From: Candidatus Poribacteria bacterium
Lineage (GTDB): Bacteria; Poribacteria; WGA-4E; WGA-3G
Assembly: GCA_009835515.1 (NCBI GenBank)
Contig: VXXH01000167.1
Span: forward strand, 1-15,713
Reading direction: 5' to 3'
DNA length: 15,713 bases
The number at the start of each line of letters is the position of its first letter. Position 1 is the stretch's first letter. The notes beneath the pieces were generated by a model, which was given only the letters and a program-made list of their open reading frames with translations, searched no databases and had not been told where the DNA came from. Both the position numbers and the translations under genes were made by a program. Of the stretch, positions 5,478 through 15,713 are shown one piece after another.

Positions 5478-6524
5478 TTACACAACAGCAACGGTTTCGC
5501 CTTCTGAACGGAGTCCTGCCTCATAGACTTTCATGACTTCCAGTGCGAACTCAAGCGATCCTTGCTCAGCCGGTTTGCCTTCGAGAACACAATCACAGAA
5601 ATATCGCATCTCTTGATAGAACCCCTGAACGAAAAGCCCTTTGTTTTCGAGGGTGCCGAGACTGTATTGCGGTTCCCAGACGACGGCACCACTCTCAAAA
5701 CCTTCGGGGACATAACTGGTACTGCCGCTATAATTGAAAGACATGCCGCGTTGGAGTAGGACCCGGTTATTGTTCCGAATTTCGGCGTGGCACCCGTCAC
5801 CAAAGAATTGATAAAGTTCGGAAGGTTGTCCGTGCCTTGCGCCATCCGCGAGATGAAAGTTTCCGAGTGTGCCGCTCTCGTATTCTAAGATACACACGCC
5901 ACCACCACGCTGTCCTTGACGGACGGTTACAGCAGAAACCTTCCCGCCGACTGCCACCATCAGCGATAACGGGTGGCAACCGTTTTGGAGCCAATTCGTA
6001 TGCTCTTTCTCGCGCAGCACTCGCTTTCCGTCGTTCGGAATCGTCATCGGATAAACCGCTAAGAGGCTTCGCAAGGGCCCGTATTCTTCCGTTGCGAAGA
6101 TTTCAACAATCTTCTGTGTCGCAGGCATGAACGCTTTTTTGAATCCGACAACGACGACGCGATCCTTGCGATGGCGAATCATTTCCCGAACTTCATCAGC
6201 AAACATTCCGGGCGGTTTTTCTAACCAAACATGCATCCCCGCGTCGAGTGCTTCGCAGGTCAATTCGGGGTGCAGGCGCGGCGGTGCGCAGAGAAAGATA
6301 GCATCCAACTCTTCGTTTCTAAACATCTCCGCCATACTCGAATAACACGCTTTAACGCCGTATTGTTCAGCAGTAATGTGGGCGCGGTCAAGATCAAGGT
6401 CGCAAAACGCCTTCAATCGAATAGGGAGAAATGTTAGCGTCGGTAAGACGTTGCGATAGCCGTGTGAACCGACACCGACGACTGCGACATTTAACCGCTC
6501 TTCAAATTCGCGTTGATAGCTCAT
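5478..6524 (-). CDS. Gfo/Idh/MocA-family oxidoreductase
   Basis: This 348-residue protein has an N-terminal Rossmann domain with GVGSHG (17-22). The family LEKPPG box is at 101-106, containing the E-K-P that contacts the nicotinamide. A C-terminal alpha/beta domain follows from about 125. Members typically oxidise or reduce sugars, inositols or related polyols with NAD(P). The usual GxHxxD segment reads G182-C-H184-P-L-S187, so the acidic position appears to be Ser; this could alter catalysis or reflect my alignment. Its ATG overlaps the TGA of the carboxypeptidase gene (ATGA at 6521-6524), which implies translational coupling. The aldo/keto reductase follows 42 bases later. Substrate unknown. 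Length is normal for the family. Confidence 0.92.
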
Positions 6525-8014
6525 ACCGACTCATCTCCCGGCAGCACGTCATCAAGGTACGTATCCAGGTCTTTTTTCATTTTTTGTAATTCCGTTTGGT
6601 CAATATACATCATGTGCCCAGCCTGATAGTAAGCCATCGTGATGTTATCTTGCAAAGACGGATCAAGTCCGAGGTGGCTGAAGGTATATTCTGATGCCAA
6701 AAACGGGGTTGCCAAGTCGTAATACCCGTTCGCGACGAACACTTTCAAGGCAGGATTAACAGTCATCGCCTTTCGCAAGGTATCAGCGACGTTGACGTAT
6801 TCGTTCTGATGGCCGCTGTAGTCCCAAGGATGCACACGTCTGCTCAGGATCTCATAAGGGAGGTCCGACTCGAATTCGAGTTCGCCACGCACATAATCGT
6901 TGAGGGTCGCGGTATAGGCACCTTGGACGACCGCGGAACTTGGGTCATATTCGTAATATTCGCCTGCTGAATCGCGGTCAATCCCTTTGTATCGACTATC
7001 AAAGCGACCGACTGTCTGTGCTTCATCACGGAGCAATTCCTTGCAAAACCGACTGATATTAATTCGCAAGTCAGTCCGCTCGATGTACTCCGGCGAGAGT
7101 CCGGTATAACTTGCGAGTTTCTGAACAATGTCGGCACGTTGTTCAGAGGGGACGTTACTGCCTTTCATGAGTGCTACGGTGTAATCACCTACGGCAAATT
7201 CTCTGACCTCGTCAATGAAAGTTTCTAATTGCCTATCGGTTTCATCCAATTTGTTATGATAAAACGCTGTCGCTGCATAAGTCGGCAGGAAGAGGATGTA
7301 GGGGAGATCATTGCCGGGTGCGAACCGAATTGTCTGGAAGTTGAGGACGACCGAAACGAGCATGATGCCGTTAAGGTAAGTGCCGTGTCGTTCCTGAAGG
7401 TAACCTGCGAGACCACCAGCGCGGGTTGTTCCATAACTTTCGCCGATGAGGAATTTCGGGGATCCCCAGCGTTGATAGCGTCCCAAATAGAGGAGGATAA
7501 AATCGCCGACGGATTCAATATCTCTTTTGAACCCGTGGAACTGCTTCGCTTCTTCCCCCGGTACGGCTCTGCTGAATCCTGTGCTGACAGGATCGATGAA
7601 AACGAGGTCGGTTTTGTCTAAGATAGAACACTCGTTATTGGTAAGCTGATAGGGAGGCTGTGGCAATTCGCCATCTTCATTGGGTTTGACGCATCTCGGT
7701 CCGAGAACTCCCAAATGTAGCCATACCGACGAAGATCCGGGCCCCCCGTTGAAGGAGAAGGTTATAGGACGGGTGGAAGTATCTTCTACATCATCGCGCG
7801 TATAGGCAACAAAGAAAACGGCGGCTTTCGGCTTCTCGCCCTCCTTGTCGATTTCTTCTTTGAGGATAAGCGTGCCTGTTGTTGCGGTGTAACGCATCTC
7901 CTCACCGTTGATGGTAACGCTGTGGTGTGTAACTGAGAGTTTATCCTCAGGTATATCGGCGTTTTTTTCTTCGTCCTTGGTTTCCTCAGATTCTTTTTTT
8001 ACTTCTTCGCTCAT
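6521..8014 (-). CDS. Serine carboxypeptidase, peptidase family S10, no signal peptide
   Basis: This 497-residue alpha/beta-hydrolase has all S10 landmarks. The oxyanion segment FNGGPGSSS is at 88-96. The nucleophile Ser193 sits in GESYG (191-195), Asp433 in GYYDLATPF (430-438), and His467 in AGHMMYID (465-472). Family members remove C-terminal residues from peptides. The N-terminus is strongly charged (Glu/Lys-rich over the first 25 residues) with no hydrophobic segment. No signal peptide appears with either possible start, which suggests a cytoplasmic enzyme. I chose the ATG at 8014 over the in-frame one at 8044 because GAGAGGAA lies 6-7 bases upstream of it. It is the first gene of the three-gene operon driven by the extended -10 box at 8077-8085. 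Its stop codon overlaps the start of the Gfo/Idh/MocA gene. Confidence 0.93.
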
Positions 8015-8076
8015 ATTGAATTCCTCTCTATTTTTGATTGGCAAGACGCTGCATAGTGCCTTATTAAATTAAACGC

Positions 8077-8499: not shown

Positions 8500-11400
8500 A
8501 TGCCACAACTCAATCTTAAACCCAGCCACAAAGCAGTCCGTGACTACTACGCCACGCTGCGTCAATACGACAAACACAGCGTCACACACGAAGGCGCGGT
8601 CAGTTCCCCTTTTGAAACGCTGCTCACTGTCTGTGCCAAACAGGTGGATGCTACCCTCATTCCACAATTTGCTATGCGGGCACCATCAGGTAACCGTATC
8701 GTTCTTGATGGCGTGATACTTGACGCATACGGACTCCCCTTCGCCTATTGGGAAGCGAAGGATATGGACGATAATCTTACCAGAGCCGTGCAGGAGAAAC
8801 GAGAGGCAGGCTATCCCCTTGACAACACGCTCTTCCAAAACCCACAACACAGCATCCTCTATCAGAACGGGGAACAGGTTTTTGACGTAGACATCACCGA
8901 TCCAACGCGCTTGATTACGGCACTCCAACACTTCTTCGCTGCACCACCCGCTGCGCTCGCGAACTGGCACGCCGCTGTCGCCGAATTCAAAGAGAAGGTC
9001 CCCGCACTCGGTAGAAAAGCGGCAGAACTCATAGCAGAACAACACAAGACGAACCCACAATTTGTCACCGCTTTCACAGGCTTTTATGAACAGTGCCGCG
9101 CCGCGATTAATCCGAATCTTTCTAAAGCCGCCGTCGAGGAGATGCTCATCCAACATCTGCTCACTGAACGCATCTTCCGTACTGTCTTTAATAACCCTGA
9201 CTTCACCCGCCGAAATATCATCGCACGCGAGATTGAAAAAGTCATTGAAGTGCTCATCGGGCAGACCTATAGTCGCGATGCGTTCCTCAAAGAACTGAAT
9301 CCGTTTTATCTCGCCATTGAACAGGCAGCACTCCTCTGTAAAGACTTCTCCCAAAAACAGCAATTTCTCAATACCGTCTACGAGCAGTTTTTTCAGGGAT
9401 TCTCTGTGGAGGTAGCAGACACGCACGGCATCGTCTACACACCACAACCGATCGTGGATTTCATGGTGAAAAGTGTTGCGCATATCTTGGAAACTGAATT
9501 TGACAGGTCGCTGTCGGATACCGGGGTTCACATTATCGATCCGTTTGTGGGGACTGGCAATTTCATTGTTCGACTCATGCAGGATATCCAAGCGACTACA
9601 CTCGAAGAGAAGTACTGCCACGAACTGCATTGCAATGAGATTCTGTTACTGCCCTACTATATTGCGAGTTTGAACATTGAGCAGGAATACTTTCAACGGA
9701 CAGGGACCTACCTGCCATTCGAGGGGATCTCACTTGCGGACACGTTTGAGTTGTTTGAGGATCAACAAATAGCACTCTTCACACAGGAAAACACGGCACG
9801 CGTGGAGAAGCAGAAAGCGGCGGATATGTTCGTTGTCATCGGTAACCCACCTTACAACGCACAGCAAATAAACGAAAACGACAACAATAAAAACCGCAAA
9901 TATCCCACTATGGATAAACAGGTGGAAGAGACTTATGCGCAAGATTCTAAGGCGCAGTTAAAAAACAAACTATACGATCCGTATGTCAAAGCGTTCAGTT
10001 GGGCATCAAAGCGAATTGGAAAGGAAGGCGTTGTCGCGTTTGTGACGAACAACGGCTTTCTGGACGGTATAGCGTTTGATGGCATGCGGAAACACCTCGC
10101 AGCTGATTTTGATGCGATTTACATTTTGGATCTGAGCGGGAATGTCCGTAAGAACCCGAAGTTGTCAGGAACGACGCACAACGTCTTTGGAATTCAGGTC
10201 GGCGTGAGCATCAATTTTTTCGTCAAGAGAAACGCTACCAAGACAAACCTAAAAACTGCCGAAATTTTCTATGCGCGCGTTGACGAATTTTGGCGGAAAG
10301 AGGAGAAGTACCGCTATCTTGATTCAAAACAACACTATCAAAACATTAGCTGGCAGCAGATAACACCTGACAGTCGCTATACATGGCTGATGGAAGGGCT
10401 CCGCCCTGAATTTGACACTTTCCTTCCGATGGGAAGCACGAAAGCAAAGGATGTGGGTACGAATGTTGTTTTCAAAACTTACAGTCTCGGTGTATCAACG
10501 AATCGAGATGCATGGGTTTACAACTTCAATCAAAACGCTCTCGCTGAGAATGTTCAGCAGATGACTGAGACTTACAACACAGAGACAGCCCGGTGGAAAC
10601 GAAGGGAAAACAGCGCGGTAAAACTTGATGATTTTGTGATACTCGATGCAACAAAAATCAAGTGGAGTTCAGGCTTAAAAAATAAATTGAAAAATGGGAA
10701 AACTACTCACTTTTCTCAAGAAAAGATTAGAAGATCCCTTTATCGCCCATTTACCGAATTGAACCTCTATTTTGATCCAAGAATGCTGACCGAGCGCGCA
10801 TCCGTTTTCCCAGCTATCTTCCCAACACCCAATGCAGAATCAGAAAATCGGGTAATTTGCGTCAGTTCTTCGAGGACAAACGCGTCTTTTCATACACTGA
10901 TGGTTGACATGATTCCAGATCTCCATCTCACAGTCGATTCCCAATGCTTTCCCTTCTACACCTACAATGAAGATGGCACAAACCGCCAAGAGAACATCAC
11001 CGATTGGGTATTGGCACAGTTCCGAACGCATTACGGTGACGACACTATCACTAAGTGGAACATCTTCCACTACAACTACGCTGTCCTGCATCACCCTGAT
11101 TATCGTGAAAAGTATCAGGCGAACCTCAAGCGCGATTTACCGCATATCCCGTTTGCTCAAGACTTCTGGGGTTTCGCTAACGCAGGTGCGCAGTTGGCAG
11201 ATATCCATGTCAACTATGCATCTGCGCCGAAATACGATGGACTGAAATACATTGAAACTCCCGGCATGCCGATAGATTGGCGCGTGGAGAAGATGCGATT
11301 CTCGAAAGATAAGACGCAGATTTATTATAACGACTACTTTACGTTGGCGGGCATTCCGGCGGAGGCGTTTGCATATCAATTAGGCACGCGTTCTGCGTTG

Positions 11401-11565
11401 GAGTGGGTGGTGGATCAGTATCGTGTGAAGGTAGACAAGCGGAGCAGGATTGTGAACGACCCGAATCGTGCGGATGCGCCGCGATATATTGTGGATTTGA
11501 TTGGACGCGTTATCACCGTTAGCCTAAAGACGGTCGAGATTGTTAAGGGATTCCCGCCATTGTAA
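8500..11565 (+). CDS. Type ISP-like restriction-modification enzyme: nuclease plus N6-adenine methyltransferase, no helicase
   Basis: This is a 1021-residue single-chain enzyme. The N-terminal domain (about 10-145) has a PD-(D/E)xK-like nuclease core with D70 (or D75) and E85-A-K87. A helical connector fills about 150-300. The methyltransferase domain (about 305-580) has a motif X region (YTPQPIVDFM, 313-322), the SAM-binding motif I DPFVGTGNF (347-355) and the catalytic NPPY (449-452) typical of N6-adenine methylation. The C-terminal region (about 600-1021) ends in a segment I recognise from type ISP specificity domains (LlaBIII/LlaGI-type), such as YNDYFTLAGIPAEAFAYQLG. Full type ISP enzymes are about 1500-1600 residues, with RecA-like helicase domains between nuclease and methyltransferase. 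No Walker A motif is visible here, so the architecture is closer to type IIG. It would methylate adenine in one asymmetric site and may cut unmodified DNA; cleavage activity is unproven. Its promoter appears leaderless. Confidence 0.85.
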   Translation: MPQLNLKPSHKAVRDYYATLRQYDKHSVTHEGAVSSPFETLLTVCAKQVDATLIPQFAMRAPSGNRIVLDGVILDAYGLPFAYWEAKDMDDNLTRAVQEKREAGYPLDNTLFQNPQHSILYQNGEQVFDVDITDPTRLITALQHFFAAPPAALANWHAAVAEFKEKVPALGRKAAELIAEQHKTNPQFVTAFTGFYEQCRAAINPNLSKAAVEEMLIQHLLTERIFRTVFNNPDFTRRNIIAREIEKVIEVLIGQTYSRDAFLKELNPFYLAIEQAALLCKDFSQKQQFLNTVYEQFFQGFSVEVADTHGIVYTPQPIVDFMVKSVAHILETEFDRSLSDTGVHIIDPFVGTGNFIVRLMQDIQATTLEEKYCHELHCNEILLLPYYIASLNIEQEYFQRTGTYLPFEGISLADTFELFEDQQIALFTQENTARVEKQKAADMFVVIGNPPYNAQQINENDNNKNRKYPTMDKQVEETYAQDSKAQLKNKLYDPYVKAFSWASKRIGKEGVVAFVTNNGFLDGIAFDGMRKHLAADFDAIYILDLSGNVRKNPKLSGTTHNVFGIQVGVSINFFVKRNATKTNLKTAEIFYARVDEFWRKEEKYRYLDSKQHYQNISWQQITPDSRYTWLMEGLRPEFDTFLPMGSTKAKDVGTNVVFKTYSLGVSTNRDAWVYNFNQNALAENVQQMTETYNTETARWKRRENSAVKLDDFVILDATKIKWSSGLKNKLKNGKTTHFSQEKIRRSLYRPFTELNLYFDPRMLTERASVFPAIFPTPNAESENRVICVSSSRTNASFHTLMVDMIPDLHLTVDSQCFPFYTYNEDGTNRQENITDWVLAQFRTHYGDDTITKWNIFHYNYAVLHHPDYREKYQANLKRDLPHIPFAQDFWGFANAGAQLADIHVNYASAPKYDGLKYIETPGMPIDWRVEKMRFSKDKTQIYYNDYFTLAGIPAEAFAYQLGTRSALEWVVDQYRVKVDKRSRIVNDPNRADAPRYIVDLIGRVITVSLKTVEIVKGFPPL

Positions 11566-11622
11566 CCCAATACCTCTTTTGTAGGAGCGAGTGTTTTTGC
11601 TTGGGTGTTTCCCCCTGCTCGC
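11565..11622. repeat. Interleaved inverted repeats between convergent genes
   Basis: ACCCAA (11565-11570) is complementary to TTGGGT (11601-11606), and GCGAG (11587-11591) to CTCGC (11618-11622). The arms interleave, so they could form alternative hairpins or a pseudoknot-like fold. The GTAGGAGCGAG...GCTCGCGA wording resembles REP-type palindromes known from other bacteria. The element fills most of the 83-base gap between the converging nuclease-methyltransferase and HicB-like genes. No clear T-rich terminator is present. Confidence 0.35.
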
Positions 11623-11648
11623 GATTCTCTGCTGAATTTTCGCTACAA

Positions 11649-11891
11649 TTAAACGCTCACTGTAATTAACGCGGATGACACCTCCGGCTCATTTTGAATT
11701 GGAAGGCTTGACGACGGCTGCGGGACGACTTCCCCATCTTCCCGTAATCCTTCAATATGAAACTCGATGGCTTCAGCGATCAGTTCTCTGACTTCTACCA
11801 TTGTCTTAGCGACAGCGATGCATCCCGGAAGATCGGGAACAGAAGCCCCGTAACTATTTTCGCCCTTTTCAAAAATAACGACGTATTCCAT
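11649..11891 (-). CDS. HicB-like antitoxin-fold protein, solitary
   Basis: This 80-residue protein carries the HicB fold signature: an N-terminal strand, SYGASVPDLPGC at residues 13-24, and a helix ending AIEFHIEGLREDGEVVPQP (41-59). In HicAB systems the antitoxin binds and inhibits the HicA mRNase and often carries a C-terminal DNA-binding helix or ribbon. Here the chain ends about 20 residues after the fold in a short strand-like tail (ALITVSV). It therefore probably does not bind DNA itself. No HicA-like frame (about 60 residues with a GSH motif) fits in the 83 bases downstream or the 217 bases upstream; the only upstream minus-strand frame I found codes 31 unrelated residues. It is thus a solitary HicB-type protein, a class common in genomes and mostly uncharacterised. 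The ribosome-binding site is weak (GAGG at long spacing). Confidence 0.85.
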   Translation of the reverse strand: MEYVVIFEKGENSYGASVPDLPGCIAVAKTMVEVRELIAEAIEFHIEGLREDGEVVPQPSSSLPIQNEPEVSSALITVSV

Positions 11892-11990
11892 GTCGGTTTC
11901 TAACCTCGGTAGAGACGGTTTGATGAAGATTAAGTATCTAATTCAAAATACCAGTCCCATAGGGTTTATTTGCTTAGGTGTTTCTTCAGT

Positions 11991-12043
11991 ATGTTTATAG
12001 AAACATGTCCTTCATCTTCTTCAGCCCTGTAAGGGCGGCATGT
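11991..12043. repeat. Compound palindromic element (REP/MITE-like)
   Basis: Three nested or adjacent dyads are visible. ATGTTT/AAACAT pairs at 11991-12006 with a 4-base loop. GCCCT/AGGGC pairs at 12024-12036 with a 3-base loop. ACATG (12003-12007) can pair with CATGT (12039-12043) around the second hairpin. Such clustered palindromes in an intergenic spacer are typical of REP or small non-autonomous elements. The element lies in the 217-base gap between the protease stop and the HicB-like start, which holds no convincing gene. Confidence 0.5.
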
Positions 12044-12108
12044 GAGTAGTAACTGATTCATGCCAGAAAAAGAAATAAGCACAAGAAATCCTGTAGAAAA
12101 TCCTCTTG

Positions 12109-12897
12109 TTAGGCACCTTGAGATGTCCGTTGTATATACTCATTAACAACATAATCTATAAGTTCCTGTACATGTCTCTGCTTTATAACAATACCAAGTC
12201 CTAGTGTTTGTTCGACTCCAACCTGTGGCATATTCACTGGTAATGTTTGAAGTTGTGAATGGCGAATCATCGTTTGAGAAACAACACCAAGCAATGAATA
12301 CTCACCATCCCAATGAACAAAAACAGGACTCCCACTGGACCCTTGAAATATTTGGGCATCAATGACAATTTGACCTTTACCATTAAAGTCAATATTAGGC
12401 ATTGATGCTATCCATCCTTTTCTGATTAGAGGTAAATTATTTACAACATCGTATCGATTTTCCGGATAGCCAACAAATATAACTTCACTTCCCACGACTA
12501 CTTTTTCGTAATCTATTGGCTTTAGAAGGTCGTTCCCCAAATTTCTATAAAAAGCATCTGTGTTTGTAATACCACCAACATTAATGCACGCCAAATCAAC
12601 TCCTGAATCAGGGTGAACAAAATATGCGTCTTCAAACCCAACCTGATCGAAAGTCCTTATATTTCCAAATTCTGGAGTCCCATCTTCTTTCCGACGATTC
12701 AGGCTAATAATCAATCTTGCTTTTGGATCAAGAAATACATGTCTATTTGAAATTAAAAGTGTTACTGAACGGTTCGTCCCATCATTCAAGGGAGCATGAT
12801 AAAAAAATCCTGTTCCGATGGAATTAGTGTTGTGTAGTTTAATCTCAACTCTAGCTGTAATATAAACTATCTGATGTTCAAAAAATTGTTTTGCCAT
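12109..12897 (-). CDS. Trypsin-like serine protease (family S1 fold), no signal peptide
   Basis: This 262-residue protein has a full chymotrypsin-fold triad. His53 lies in LISNRHVF, Asp101 in DSGVDLACI, and nucleophile Ser188 in FQGSSGSPVF. The latter matches the family GDSGGP box with Asp194 and Gly197 (chymotrypsin numbering) replaced by Ser. The motif GTGFF at 28-32 and the GYPE turn at 143-146 are also typical of HtrA-like or conflict-system trypsins. There is no signal peptide, membrane helix or PDZ domain, so it should act in the cytoplasm. The start is supported by AGGA 6 bases upstream. It lies 90 bases after the DUF2806-type gene, with a hairpin between them. Cytoplasmic trypsin-like domains often serve as effectors or maturation proteases in bacterial defence systems; that role here is inferred from the neighbours. 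GC content by eye is lower than in the left half. Confidence 0.87.
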   Translation of the reverse strand: MAKQFFEHQIVYITARVEIKLHNTNSIGTGFFYHAPLNDGTNRSVTLLISNRHVFLDPKARLIISLNRRKEDGTPEFGNIRTFDQVGFEDAYFVHPDSGVDLACINVGGITNTDAFYRNLGNDLLKPIDYEKVVVGSEVIFVGYPENRYDVVNNLPLIRKGWIASMPNIDFNGKGQIVIDAQIFQGSSGSPVFVHWDGEYSLLGVVSQTMIRHSQLQTLPVNMPQVGVEQTLGLGIVIKQRHVQELIDYVVNEYIQRTSQGA

Positions 12898-12935
12898 TCG
12901 GTTTCCTGGTCAGAGGTTAAAGTATAAAACAAGTA

Positions 12936-12956
12936 AACAAAGCACGAGGCTTTGTT
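12936..12956 (-). terminator. Hairpin between DUF2806-type and protease genes, possible weak terminator or attenuator
   Basis: AACAAAGC and GCTTTGTT form a perfect 8-bp stem with a 5-base loop. On the minus strand the downstream side continues TTTACTTGTTTTAT, so a U-rich tail follows. Only three of eight pairs are G-C, so termination would be partial. It starts 31 bases after the DUF2806-type stop and ends 38 bases before the protease start. Confidence 0.4.
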
Positions 12957-12987
12957 CTATATTAATGCCTCATGCTACACTTATACA

Positions 12988-13836
12988 TTAGTCATTCTTA
13001 ACTGCAGGTAAGTACTGCTTCCACTGCTCCTTGACATATTCATAAAAACCCTCCACAGGTTTACTTCCGCATATCGGAGCAAGTTCTTGTCCGATCTTTG
13101 TGAGAAATACTTTTCCAGTCTTAAGTTCATTGTTAGCATCCTCAGGTATCTCCAAGGAGAGAGGCTTACTATAATAATACACGACAAATCTCTTAGAAAC
13201 ACCGATCCGCTTGAAACCTGAAAGCCCGCCAAATTGAATAAGTCCAATAGTTTCAAGGTGATTCAGAGTATCAAAGTTAATCTCGTTTCTATTGTAGATG
13301 TCTGCTTGAACATCAAACACCAATGGTACAACATTCCCAATCACCCAACCGAATCCGCAGAGTCTGGTGAATAAATCTGCATCGTTTTTGTCGAAATCTG
13401 AAAGAAGATTAACAGTCCGCTTTGAATAGGTCCCAGGGGTGTTCGCTTCTCCAGCTAGAACACGCGCCCACAAACTTTGCATCTCATCGTTAGACACAAT
13501 CCGGCATTTATCAAACAAGTTGGCGACCCAGTCATCATCCATAGCATCGGGATTTGCATCTTCATTCAAATGAGGTGCCGCTTTAGCCGTAATATCCTCC
13601 ATATTCTTCTGGTGTTTTGCTTCTTCCTCGATCCGACGCTGTTCTGCCCGTCGATGCAAGTCCGTTATCTCAATCTCCGATTCCGCCTTCATCTTTGAAG
13701 CCTCAGCTTCTGCTTTAGCAACGTTCTTAATTCTACGAGGCTCGTAGAGAGTGCCTACTCCCTTTGATATCTTCTTAACCAGTGTATCAAAGGGTTTCGC
13801 TAAGTCTCCCACATTCGCGAGAGGATTATCTGACAT
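12988..13836 (-). CDS. DUF2806-type protein with N-terminal coiled coil
   Basis: This is a 282-residue soluble protein. The first 35 residues are moderately hydrophobic and basic (VKKISKGVGTLYEPRRIK). Residues about 36-85 form a long Ala/Glu/Lys/Arg-rich coiled coil. The conserved core follows: DDDWVANLFDKCR (100-112), SNDEMQSLWARVLAGEANTPG (115-135) and SKRTVNLLSDFDKNDADLF (138-156). I recognise this wording from DUF2806 proteins, whose function I do not know to be established. The C-terminal third (about 185-255) looks like a winged-helix-type domain (FDTLNHLETIGLIQ, then two strands and KVFLTKIGQEL). No catalytic motif or true transmembrane helix is visible. AAGGAGG lies 10 bases before the ATG. 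It is 94 bases after the TPR gene and 90 bases before the protease gene, all on one strand. A sensor or adaptor role in a shared pathway is plausible but inferred. Confidence 0.75.
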   Translation of the reverse strand: MSDNPLANVGDLAKPFDTLVKKISKGVGTLYEPRRIKNVAKAEAEASKMKAESEIEITDLHRRAEQRRIEEEAKHQKNMEDITAKAAPHLNEDANPDAMDDDWVANLFDKCRIVSNDEMQSLWARVLAGEANTPGTYSKRTVNLLSDFDKNDADLFTRLCGFGWVIGNVVPLVFDVQADIYNRNEINFDTLNHLETIGLIQFGGLSGFKRIGVSKRFVVYYYSKPLSLEIPEDANNELKTGKVFLTKIGQELAPICGSKPVEGFYEYVKEQWKQYLPAVKND

Positions 13837-13930
13837 GATTGGGTTTCCTCCTTATCTCATTTGTATTTCCCGCGTTAAGTTATATCCAAGTCCCACAATC
13901 CTTATTCAATATATCTGAGTTTCAAACCTA

Positions 13931-15713
13931 CTATTGTCCCAACATTGCTGCGATGTCTTCTGGCAACTGAACACTGTTTTGCTGTTCAAACTCTGCAACA
14001 CTATTGTGGTAATGACGAAACGCAGCGATAATATCCATTCCCATGTACCTCGCAATAATCAAACTTTCTCTGGCTTTTACCCATTGTTGTAAGTGTAAGC
14101 AAGCCAAACCGCGATAGCAATAAGCATGGGCATCATCGCGTTTTCGCCCTATCGCTTGGTTATAGTCTGCGATTGCAAGAGCGTATTCGTGTTTCTGATA
14201 GTAAGTAGTACCTCGACCATAGTAACCAGAAGTATCGTTTGGTGCCAGTTCTATTACCCGGTTGTAATCCTCAATTGCCTTGTCAAACTGACCTATATCG
14301 CCATAGGTTGCTCCACGGTTGCAATAGCCCTCAACAAAATCTGGATTTAGCTCTATCGCTCGGTTATAGTTTTCCATAGCCTTTTCATGTTCACCTTTGA
14401 GATTGTAAGCATAACCGAGTTGGCTATAGCCCTCGGTATCATTTCGCTCTAATCGAAGCATTTCTTTAAAATCATTGATAGAAGGATCAATTTGTCCTAT
14501 AGCGAGGTAAGCGGTCGCGCGCATTTTATAGGTCTTGGTATCGTTCGGGGATAGTTTTAGGGTTTCGTTAAAGTCATTAATCGCAGGGTTAATCTGACCT
14601 ACAGCGAAGTAAATTCTGCCTCGAGAATAATGTGCTTCAGCAAGATCTGCGTTTAGTTCAATTGCTCTATTATAGTCTGCCATAGCTTTTTCAAATCTGC
14701 CACTTCCATCATAAACTAAGCCACGAGCGAAGTATGCTTTACCGTAATCTTGGTTGAGTTGTATTGCTTGATTATAACTCTCAATAGCAAGATCAAAATC
14801 GCCTCTTTTGTAGTAGGCACATCCGCGCCAATAGCACGCCTCGGCATAATCTGATTTCAACCGTATCGCCTCGGTATAATCCGCAATAGCAGAATCAAAA
14901 TCACCTTCTTTGTAGTACATACTGCCACGGTTGAAATATGTTCCAGCATCATTCGGTTCCAACTCTATTGCTTTGGTATAATCCACAATAGCCTCATCGA
15001 AATTACCCTTTTTATCGTGAGCAGCCCCTCGGTCGCGATAAGCCTTGATAAATCTTGGGTTCAGTTGTATCGCCTCGGTATAGTCGGCAATAGCCTCGTC
15101 GTGTCGTCCTTTACTGCTGTGAATGAAACCACGACTGCAATAGGCTTCCGAGTAATTTGGCTTTAGTCGTATCGCCTCCGTGTAGTCAGCAATAGCCTTG
15201 TCATCTTCACTGTTTAGATCGTAAGTCGCGCCGCGGTTAAGATAAGTTACAGCAAAATTAGGTCTCTTTTCTATTACCCTATTGTAGTCTTTGATGGCTA
15301 AATCTCGCTCCCCTTTGTCAGAGTACGCGAGTCCGCGATTCGCGAGAACTTCAACAAACTCAGGGTTCAGTTCTATAACTTTATCATAGTCCTGAATAGC
15401 GAGATCATAGTCCTCTTTCGCACGGTAAACGTTCCCGCGATTATTATAAAGTTCAATATAATTGGGTTTCAGTTTTAAGGCTTCGGTGTAGTGATTAATG
15501 GCATCTTCATAGTGATCCTGTTTCTCCTTATTGTTTCTCGCTTTATCTCCTTTTGCTTGACAGGTGAGCCCTTTAAGAAATTCTGTGGAAGCACTTCGTC
15601 TAATAAAGCCATGAAGGTCATTATAGATCGTCTCAGCAGAAATCCTGTGGTATTTTCGTAGGTATTCTAACATGGGAAACTTGAGATCTATAGGGATATC
15701 GACTTCAATATCC
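13931..15713 (-). CDS. TPR-repeat protein, 5' end outside the window, possible FRG-domain tail at the N-terminus
   Basis: The reading frame is open to the right edge: upstream of the first in-window Met (codon 15671-15673) it continues DIEVDIPIDLKFP without a stop. That Met has no Shine-Dalgarno sequence, so the gene is probably truncated by the window. Counting from that Met, residues 30-72 are a first TPR with a 9-residue insertion. Residues 73-548 are 14 regular 34-residue TPRs (consensus RGxxYxxxGxxDxAIxDYxxAIxLxP). Residues 549-580 are a tail ending QLPEDIAAMLGQ. Residues 1-26 (EYLRKYHRISAETIYNDLHG) resemble the end of FRG domains, with the tlFPDLdGla-type box, so an FRG-TPR fusion is my preferred guess. 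TPR arrays bind peptides or scaffold partners. It is the first gene visible of the TPR, DUF2806, protease cluster. If the Met at 15673 is used, the product is 580 residues. Confidence 0.85.
   Translation of the reverse strand, partial: DIEVDIPIDLKFPMLEYLRKYHRISAETIYNDLHGFIRRSASTEFLKGLTCQAKGDKARNNKEKQDHYEDAINHYTEALKLKPNYIELYNNRGNVYRAKEDYDLAIQDYDKVIELNPEFVEVLANRGLAYSDKGERDLAIKDYNRVIEKRPNFAVTYLNRGATYDLNSEDDKAIADYTEAIRLKPNYSEAYCSRGFIHSSKGRHDEAIADYTEAIQLNPRFIKAYRDRGAAHDKKGNFDEAIVDYTKAIELEPNDAGTYFNRGSMYYKEGDFDSAIADYTEAIRLKSDYAEACYWRGCAYYKRGDFDLAIESYNQAIQLNQDYGKAYFARGLVYDGSGRFEKAMADYNRAIELNADLAEAHYSRGRIYFAVGQINPAINDFNETLKLSPNDTKTYKMRATAYLAIGQIDPSINDFKEMLRLERNDTEGYSQLGYAYNLKGEHEKAMENYNRAIELNPDFVEGYCNRGATYGDIGQFDKAIEDYNRVIELAPNDTSGYYGRGTTYYQKHEYALAIADYNQAIGRKRDDAHAYCYRGLACLHLQQWVKARESLIIARYMGMDIIAAFRHYHNSVAEFEQQNSVQLPEDIAAMLGQ
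14030..15457 (-). repeat. 102-bp tandem coding repeat, 14 units (TPR)
   Basis: Fourteen consecutive 34-codon units encode the TPRs without a single insertion or deletion between them. Units diverge at the base level but keep the RG, AIxDY and AIxL positions. Units 9 and 10 share a distinctive GQI-P-IND(F) core, which suggests that one arose from the other by duplication. Confidence 0.85.

Follow-up and report, generated by a model that had tools for sequence, protein, structure and literature searches.

A candidate composite antiviral island at a recurrent Poribacteria insertion site, where proteases of two folds recur beside a restriction-modification gene

Nucleases are paired with trypsin-like proteases in Hachiman, AVAST, Lamassu, DRT and canu loci, and in several systems the protease activates its partner, according to the accessible part of PMC12799240 (Tuck et al. 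2025), and FRG domain proteins are described as antiviral effectors of the ADP-ribosyltransferase (ART) superfamily (PMC9503650). Abi-alpha (EF2833, DUF4393/PF14337) is, in the available text of PMC6356687, a prophage gene which brings about abortive infection with early lysis. We analyzed a stretch of 15,713 bases (hereafter the window), the whole of contig VXXH01000167.1 (C324 of genome G000), from a Poribacteria metagenome-assembled genome which is 78.6% complete, and compared it with a panel of 84 genomes of the phylum, while its insertion site was surveyed in 38 genomes of the genus. On the minus strand the window encodes a TPR protein (13931-15712), a DUF2806 protein (12988-13836, 282 aa) and a trypsin-like protease (12109-12897, 262 aa), next to a Type ISP-like restriction-modification (RM) gene on the plus strand (8500-11565). 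The original prediction took the three minus-strand genes for one undescribed conflict system. We argue, with a probability of roughly 0.6, that what lies here is a composite antiviral island at a recurrent Poribacteria insertion site, often with a Type ISP-like RM gene, and that it holds two separable modules, the TPR gene with DUF2806 and the protease. By sequence comparison the trio is a local stack of such modules and not one conserved machine.

The likeness to the loci of Tuck et al., as far as the accessible text describes them, lies in an intracellular protease repeatedly acquired beside nucleases in unrelated defence systems and in the logic of a proteolytic switch, and by analogy the window protease may work as theirs do. 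Their proteases are fused to a core defence enzyme, after the gene of a metallo-beta-lactamase-fold nuclease, whereas here a stand-alone protease lies beside DUF2806 and an RM gene, and beside other nuclease-like partners in relatives; the gene upstream of it is DUF2806 and the protease is unfused. A term search found no mention of FRG, subtilisin or restriction-modification in the main text of PMC12799240, and in the literature listings searched, which most subscription papers and preprints fall outside, no paper turned up that deals with proteases at islands of RM genes. Three PADLOC families, PDC-S45, PDC-S15 and PDC-S54, are matched respectively by the window protease, by the FRG part of the TPR ortholog in genome G077 and by a neighbour in G079; PADLOC treats each as a candidate family on its own and describes no mechanism for them, and the stacking seen here lies outside those models. 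While Abi-alpha is a prophage gene, DUF2806 here follows the TPR gene in a chromosomal island. Compared with the described FRG/ART effectors, the FRG proteins of this locus belong to the same sequence family and, by a weak structure model, may share an ART-like fold, but are fused to TPRs and present in many copies in Poribacteria.

The insertion site is bordered on one side by the gene at 6521-8044 (minus strand), which we take to be serine carboxypeptidase-like and which has matches at E<=1e-80 in 57/84 phylum genomes, and on the other by a GFO/IDH/MocA oxidoreductase gene with matches at E<=1e-60 in 61/84, placed on contig C69 in the window genome. The two borders shared a contig at 25 sites, which were spread over 24 of the 38 genus genomes (G079 being counted across its record start). 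Twelve of these sites were near-empty gaps of 174-498 bases and 13 held 1.4-10 kb. The RM gene was present in eight of the 13 filled sites (G054, G056, G061, G064, G070, G071 and G081, and as a remnant in G077); the filled sites lacking it were G049, G072, G080 and G083, with other genes, and G079. Where contig ends break the site, the RM gene was also noticed, whole or in part, in G000, G050, G053, G055, G062, G063, G068 and G073.

The protease of the window was described in the original prediction as a signal-less serine protease with an intact triad, and this was borne out. It matches Trypsin_2 (1.5e-10) and, over residues 1-253, PADLOC PDC-S45 (1.9e-51); His53, Asp101 and Ser188 are invariant in 38/38 relatives hand-chosen for the alignment, and a 19-residue hydropathy scan found neither a signal peptide nor a membrane stretch. 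Thus, by profile and triad, it is a stand-alone member of PDC-S45, a trypsin-like serine protease. Its matches are patchy, occurring in 11/84 phylum genomes, and the family is also reported, in the part of PMC12429752 available, from a Sinorhizobium prophage. At the hotspot PDC-S45 is found in G000 and G079, with broken pieces in G069, while other genomes carry a trypsin domain fused to TPRs (G064, G071) or a short S8 subtilase (G070, G077, G065). Altogether 5/13 resolved filled sites bear a protease, and 4/8 resolved RM-bearing sites bear a trypsin-TPR or S8 protease. A contig of G047 beside the hotspot border gene encodes a further trypsin-TPR protein that seems, judged by eye, to bear a lipoprotein signal and was excluded from these counts.

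We also looked at the S8 genes of the 38 genus genomes, most of which run to about 1200-1400 aa, beside other long genes and a few fragments (longer or broken ones occur for example in G051 and G063); six are intact genes of 434-442 aa, and it is for these six that neighbourhoods were read. The Asp, His and Ser motifs are retained throughout the six, and behind each gene lies an open reading frame (ORF) of 105-116 aa (e.g. L208:1882-2340, L238:248-718, L246:6144-6494, L248:7020-7370). The small ORF of G070 gave a weak Pro-kumamolisin-activation match (0.005, below the cut-off), and perhaps the short S8 gene and its inhibitor- or propeptide-like ORF form a protease-inhibitor pair. Five of the six short S8 genes share an island with the RM gene at three sites (G070 with G077, where a remnant is left; G047 with G056; G082), and for the sixth (G065) the sequence stops where its contig does. 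In G047 the S8 gene, the small ORF 1 base on and, 54 bases further, a TPR gene that opens with an FRG-like part face an RM gene split in two ORFs, and G056 carries the same set; the FRG-like start of G047 is known by its motif and by its similarity to the FRG domain of G077 (33% over 63 residues, 9e-10). The chance of finding a short S8 gene beside the RM gene at three independent sites was estimated at ~1e-7, an estimate which assumes two RM genes per genome and ignores the attraction of islands for both. PDC-S45 itself lies between the Res and Mod genes of a type III system in G018 (by Pfam) and, in the same layout, in G020 (L049:5087-10600, L051:4978-10505). Proteases of two unrelated folds recur beside the Type ISP-like RM gene, an unexpected pattern which is stronger than that of the trio.

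This recurrence could mean that the protease belongs with restriction, trimming the RM enzyme or nuclease to limit self-restriction, or standing guard against phages that disable restriction, with FRG-TPR and DUF2806 as bystanders, an account which we regard as possible though unlikely. It fits the convergent arrangement of protease and RM genes in G000, in G034 (at another site, both genes broken), in G082 and at the G047/G056 site, the Res-protease-Mod order, the nuclease-like and protease neighbours in G074 and G079 and the protease at half of the RM-bearing hotspot sites, and there are known cases elsewhere of pro-nucleases that are activated by proteolysis (PMC12799240, accessible part). 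However, the other half of these sites (G054, G056, G061, G081) has no protease, PDC-S45 occurs in G079 and G074 with no RM gene in the stretch read, and islands attract many kinds of genes, so that co-residence can be passive. Another account has unrelated single-gene defences and selfish genes gathering at a site that tolerates them, none of them being coupled in function, which is also conceivable but doubtful. The cargo does differ between most genomes, with transposase (integrase core) genes in G055, transposon-like ORFs (by eye) in G061 and G080 and other genes in G049 and G072; on the other hand, passive stacking does not sit well with the RM gene and two protease folds recurring at several sites, or with five of six short S8 genes lying in one island with the RM gene or what remains of it.

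In the composite island that we favour, the sequence comparisons show the gene content, the intact triad, the purifying selection, the hotspot, the shuffling of modules and the recurrence of proteases, whereas transcription units, enzyme activities, triggers, substrates and antiviral effect are inferred as follows. Module 1, the upstream one, would consist of FRG-TPR and DUF2806; its TPR part may sense infection or bind a regulator and so release the FRG domain, a putative ART-fold enzyme consuming NAD or transferring from it, with which DUF2806, as a candidate Abi-alpha relative, would act as an abortive-infection component. Module 2 would be PDC-S45, which belongs to a set of cytoplasmic proteases that may replace one another beside the RM gene, its place being taken elsewhere by a trypsin-TPR fusion or by a subtilase with its small inhibitor-like ORF. 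Such a protease would be specific and intracellular, held off in healthy cells, and on infection would cut the product of a neighbour (the RM enzyme, FRG-TPR or a nuclease), thereby switching or backing up the defence. More speculatively, and in our view quite unlikely, the single-chain RM genes of Poribacteria may have beside them an interchangeable 'protease slot', filled by a cytoplasmic trypsin, a trypsin-TPR fusion or a subtilase with a small inhibitor of its own, and in many cases accompanied by a TPR or FRG-TPR gene. It would form a proteolytic layer which watches over restriction or switches it, and which sets free an effector of the ADP-ribosyltransferase type once restriction has failed. 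Should that slot be functional, classical restriction-modification would join Hachiman, AVAST and canu (PMC12799240, as accessible) among the systems under proteolytic control, the exchange of one protease fold for another at a single site would speak strongly for selection on proteolysis as such, and three PADLOC candidates and DUF2806 would gain roles.

We then consider it improbable that the three genes make one system, in which an FRG/TPR sensor-effector, a DUF2806 adaptor and a protease would cooperate, the protease being set free on infection and then switching on either the FRG enzyme or the protein that resembles Abi-alpha. The ORFs confirmed that all three genes lie on the minus strand with gaps of 90 and 94 bases, as proposed, but since three neighbours on one strand are expected one time in four, adjacency is weak evidence alone. 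All three genes are under purifying selection (dN/dS, the ratio of nonsynonymous to synonymous substitution rates, of 0.15-0.29 against the relatives compared). A joint system would also gain from the FRG-TPR/DUF2806 pair of G077, which has a subtilase in place of the trypsin of the window, and from the tight S8/small ORF/FRG-TPR clusters of G047 and G056. However, besides G000 five genomes matched both protease and DUF2806 (G018, G020 and G034; weakly G044 and G069), and in all five the two were on different contigs, with the qualification that the G034 copy of DUF2806 is the last thing on its contig, which leaves its distance to the (broken) protease copy open. In a wider scan of 80 DUF2806 loci, six of them from Poribacteria, no protease homolog was found (0/80; phmmer E<=1e-4, within the fetched flanks) and FRG was present in the G077 and G081 records alone; a distant protease homolog was encoded in 4/37 whole genomes with DUF2806, none at the DUF2806 locus. 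FRG and DUF2806 occurred together, among the matches listed, only in the window, G077 and G081, that is, at one orthologous site; G081 has no protease, and there a deletion has joined the start of FRG to the end of DUF2806 in frame, giving a natural FRG::DUF2806 fusion (L060:7021-8226). As a control we examined 40 genus FRG loci (the best-scoring ones listed after the two known), of which three had a trypsin-like gene within ~4 kb, where 0.85 Trypsin_2 matches were to be expected. The three resemble one another, the trypsin-like gene coming directly after FRG-TPR at distances of 11, 11 and -4 bases (L262:3998-6768, L268:2130-4699, L269:3980-6417). FRG and protease genes are thus neighbours sometimes, not usually. 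Between DUF2806 and the protease lies a terminator-like hairpin (12935-12957, minus strand; 9 pairs, 3 of them G-C, loop of 5, found by pattern match), whereas the gap between FRG-TPR and DUF2806 (13837-13930, 94 bases) is without such a site, has the purine-rich AAGGAGG before the DUF2806 start and is of equal length in G077; FRG-TPR and DUF2806 are probably one transcript. Among protein clusters, those of FRG-TPR and DUF2806 share a contig size of 9058 bases, and a further shared size of 5763642 (DUF2806 with a 56% FRG relative) is chromosome-sized and uninformative.

The fixed TPR/FRG, DUF2806 and trypsin system of the original prediction is thus not supported: the trio was not seen to recur at unrelated sites, the neighbourhood of the set is for the most part not conserved, and the FRG-TPR/DUF2806 pair alone was seen again, at the one orthologous site. 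This is largely the outcome which the original prediction had named as its refutation. Its defence setting held up, given PDC-S45, PDC-S15 in the ortholog, a DUF2806 family with Abi-alpha affinity and an RM neighbour in a hotspot. Its theme of a repeat scaffold with an intracellular protease survives in part, as a protease beside FRG-TPR recurs at other sites, though the proteases there are other ones.

With regard to module 1, the long TPR gene was correctly recognized, by 13 TPR_1 stretches, but not as a complete gene, as its frame runs off the contig end. The suggestion of an FRG domain proved well founded: the G077 ortholog (753 aa) begins with one (8.1e-11), and this part matches PADLOC PDC-S15 (6.3e-16). 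Relative to this ortholog about 160 N-terminal residues, including the FRG domain, are missing from the window gene, and no FRG (PF08867) match was noted in the window protein among the matches listed (25/32 families). The GFO/IDH/MocA border gene of the window genome sits 204 bases from the edge of C69, which is consistent with the missing 5' end of FRG-TPR lying in an assembly gap. The structure model of the G077 FRG domain weakly suggests an ADP-ribosyltransferase fold. FRG relatives were seen in 62/84 phylum genomes, often several per genome.

The middle gene was rightly called DUF2806-type (profile match 2e-39), with long N-terminal helices and a possible C-terminal winged helix, and the family is matched in 32/84 phylum genomes. 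The Abi_alpha profile was matched weakly (E<=0.1) by 41/65 DUF2806 family members (best 4.1e-7), and PMC6356687 itself, in its available text, reports similarity of Abi-alpha to PF10987 (DUF2806); at the sequence level the DUF2806 family thus resembles a distant Abi-alpha relative. When 57 of 84 same-strand neighbours of DUF2806 were scanned (hand-picked, mostly the longer ones, with Poribacteria loci left out), RM families recurred among the matches listed (25/95 families): four Methylase_S and two each of N6_N4_Mtase, MmeI-type, N6_Mtase, ResIII and Eco57I, these being overlapping. At one locus DUF2806 follows an ApeA-like HEPN gene (ApeA_NTD1, 1e-54) with an RM gene nearby (L059:7690-9932). 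DUF2806 relatives were also carried by 308 plasmid records (H11-H35), mostly conjugative plasmids of E. coli, Salmonella and Klebsiella. In the literature searched DUF2806 is named in two papers; in the accessible part of one, PMC8221240, it is only a gene disrupted on E. coli plasmids.

Several observations weigh against the composite antiviral island as we have drawn it. The window DUF2806 protein itself gave no match to Abi_alpha at E<=0.1, in a family whose best member reaches 4.1e-7, and several DUF2806 neighbours belong, among the matches listed, to single housekeeping families, so that DUF2806 may act alone. The FRG model of G077 is poor (pLDDT, the predicted local distance difference test, of 61). 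A trypsin-like or S8 gene was absent at 37/40 genus FRG loci, and at the other three the protease seems, by eye, to begin with a signal peptide. The terminator-like hairpin, although the only such site within 11550-15713, may be a chance product, as shuffled sequence yields 2.9 such sites. The DUF2806 and protease clusters both include contigs with lengths of 155588 and 42310 bases (by eye, in 120 listed rows each); by this equality of length two further contigs may carry both genes, which would argue for a lasting link, and the pairing may be common to close relatives. The nuclease-like gene of G074 and G079 has, in relatives, weak similarity to the restriction-fold Pfam family Tox-REase-9, below the family cut-off, and 14/38 genus genomes (the window's among them) have the site split between contigs, have it displaced or are without one of its borders.

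Host interaction or housekeeping proteolysis in a symbiont is highly improbable, for although Poribacteria are sponge-associated and the genus is rich in trypsin-like genes (its 38 genomes give 544 matches to Trypsin_2), the protease has no signal peptide, is patchy (11/84 genomes) and sits at a hotspot with RM and nuclease-like neighbours.

The remaining neighbours agree with the first description of the surroundings, an RM gene and a lone HicB beside the trio. The RM protein (1021 aa) has the Type_ISP_C (1.9e-104), ISP_coupler and N6_Mtase domains and a REase_MTase_IIG match, a likeness to single-chain Type ISP and type IIG enzymes. Type ISP enzymes carry a helicase/ATPase domain in the same chain; a Pfam scan found no helicase family in the window protein at E<=0.1, and because of this and its length of only 1021 aa we call it ISP-like. 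Its segment at 10222-10941 (plus strand, about residues 575-814), in which the hotspot alleles differ most while having both ends in common, is likely the target-recognition region, as if swapped between alleles: the G056 allele is 91% identical to the window up to 10221 and 86% from 10942, with nothing between, and the segment shows mostly 37-68% aa identity in six relatives. The HicB-like gene (11649-11891, minus strand; HicB_lk_antitox 2.4e-15) is in the same place in G064 (92% at the nucleotide level), and no HicA-sized ORF was found between the RM gene and the protease, the longest besides HicB being of 48 aa. At the G079 site the nuclease-like gene, PDC-S54 (5.7e-144) and PDC-S45 stand in a row (L070 end / L048:1-2784); the nuclease-like gene recurs with PDC-S54 in G070 and with PDC-S45 in G074. 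The hotspot island of G055 carries a TIR gene of the CAP12/Pycsar kind (L231:961-1548) between transposase genes.

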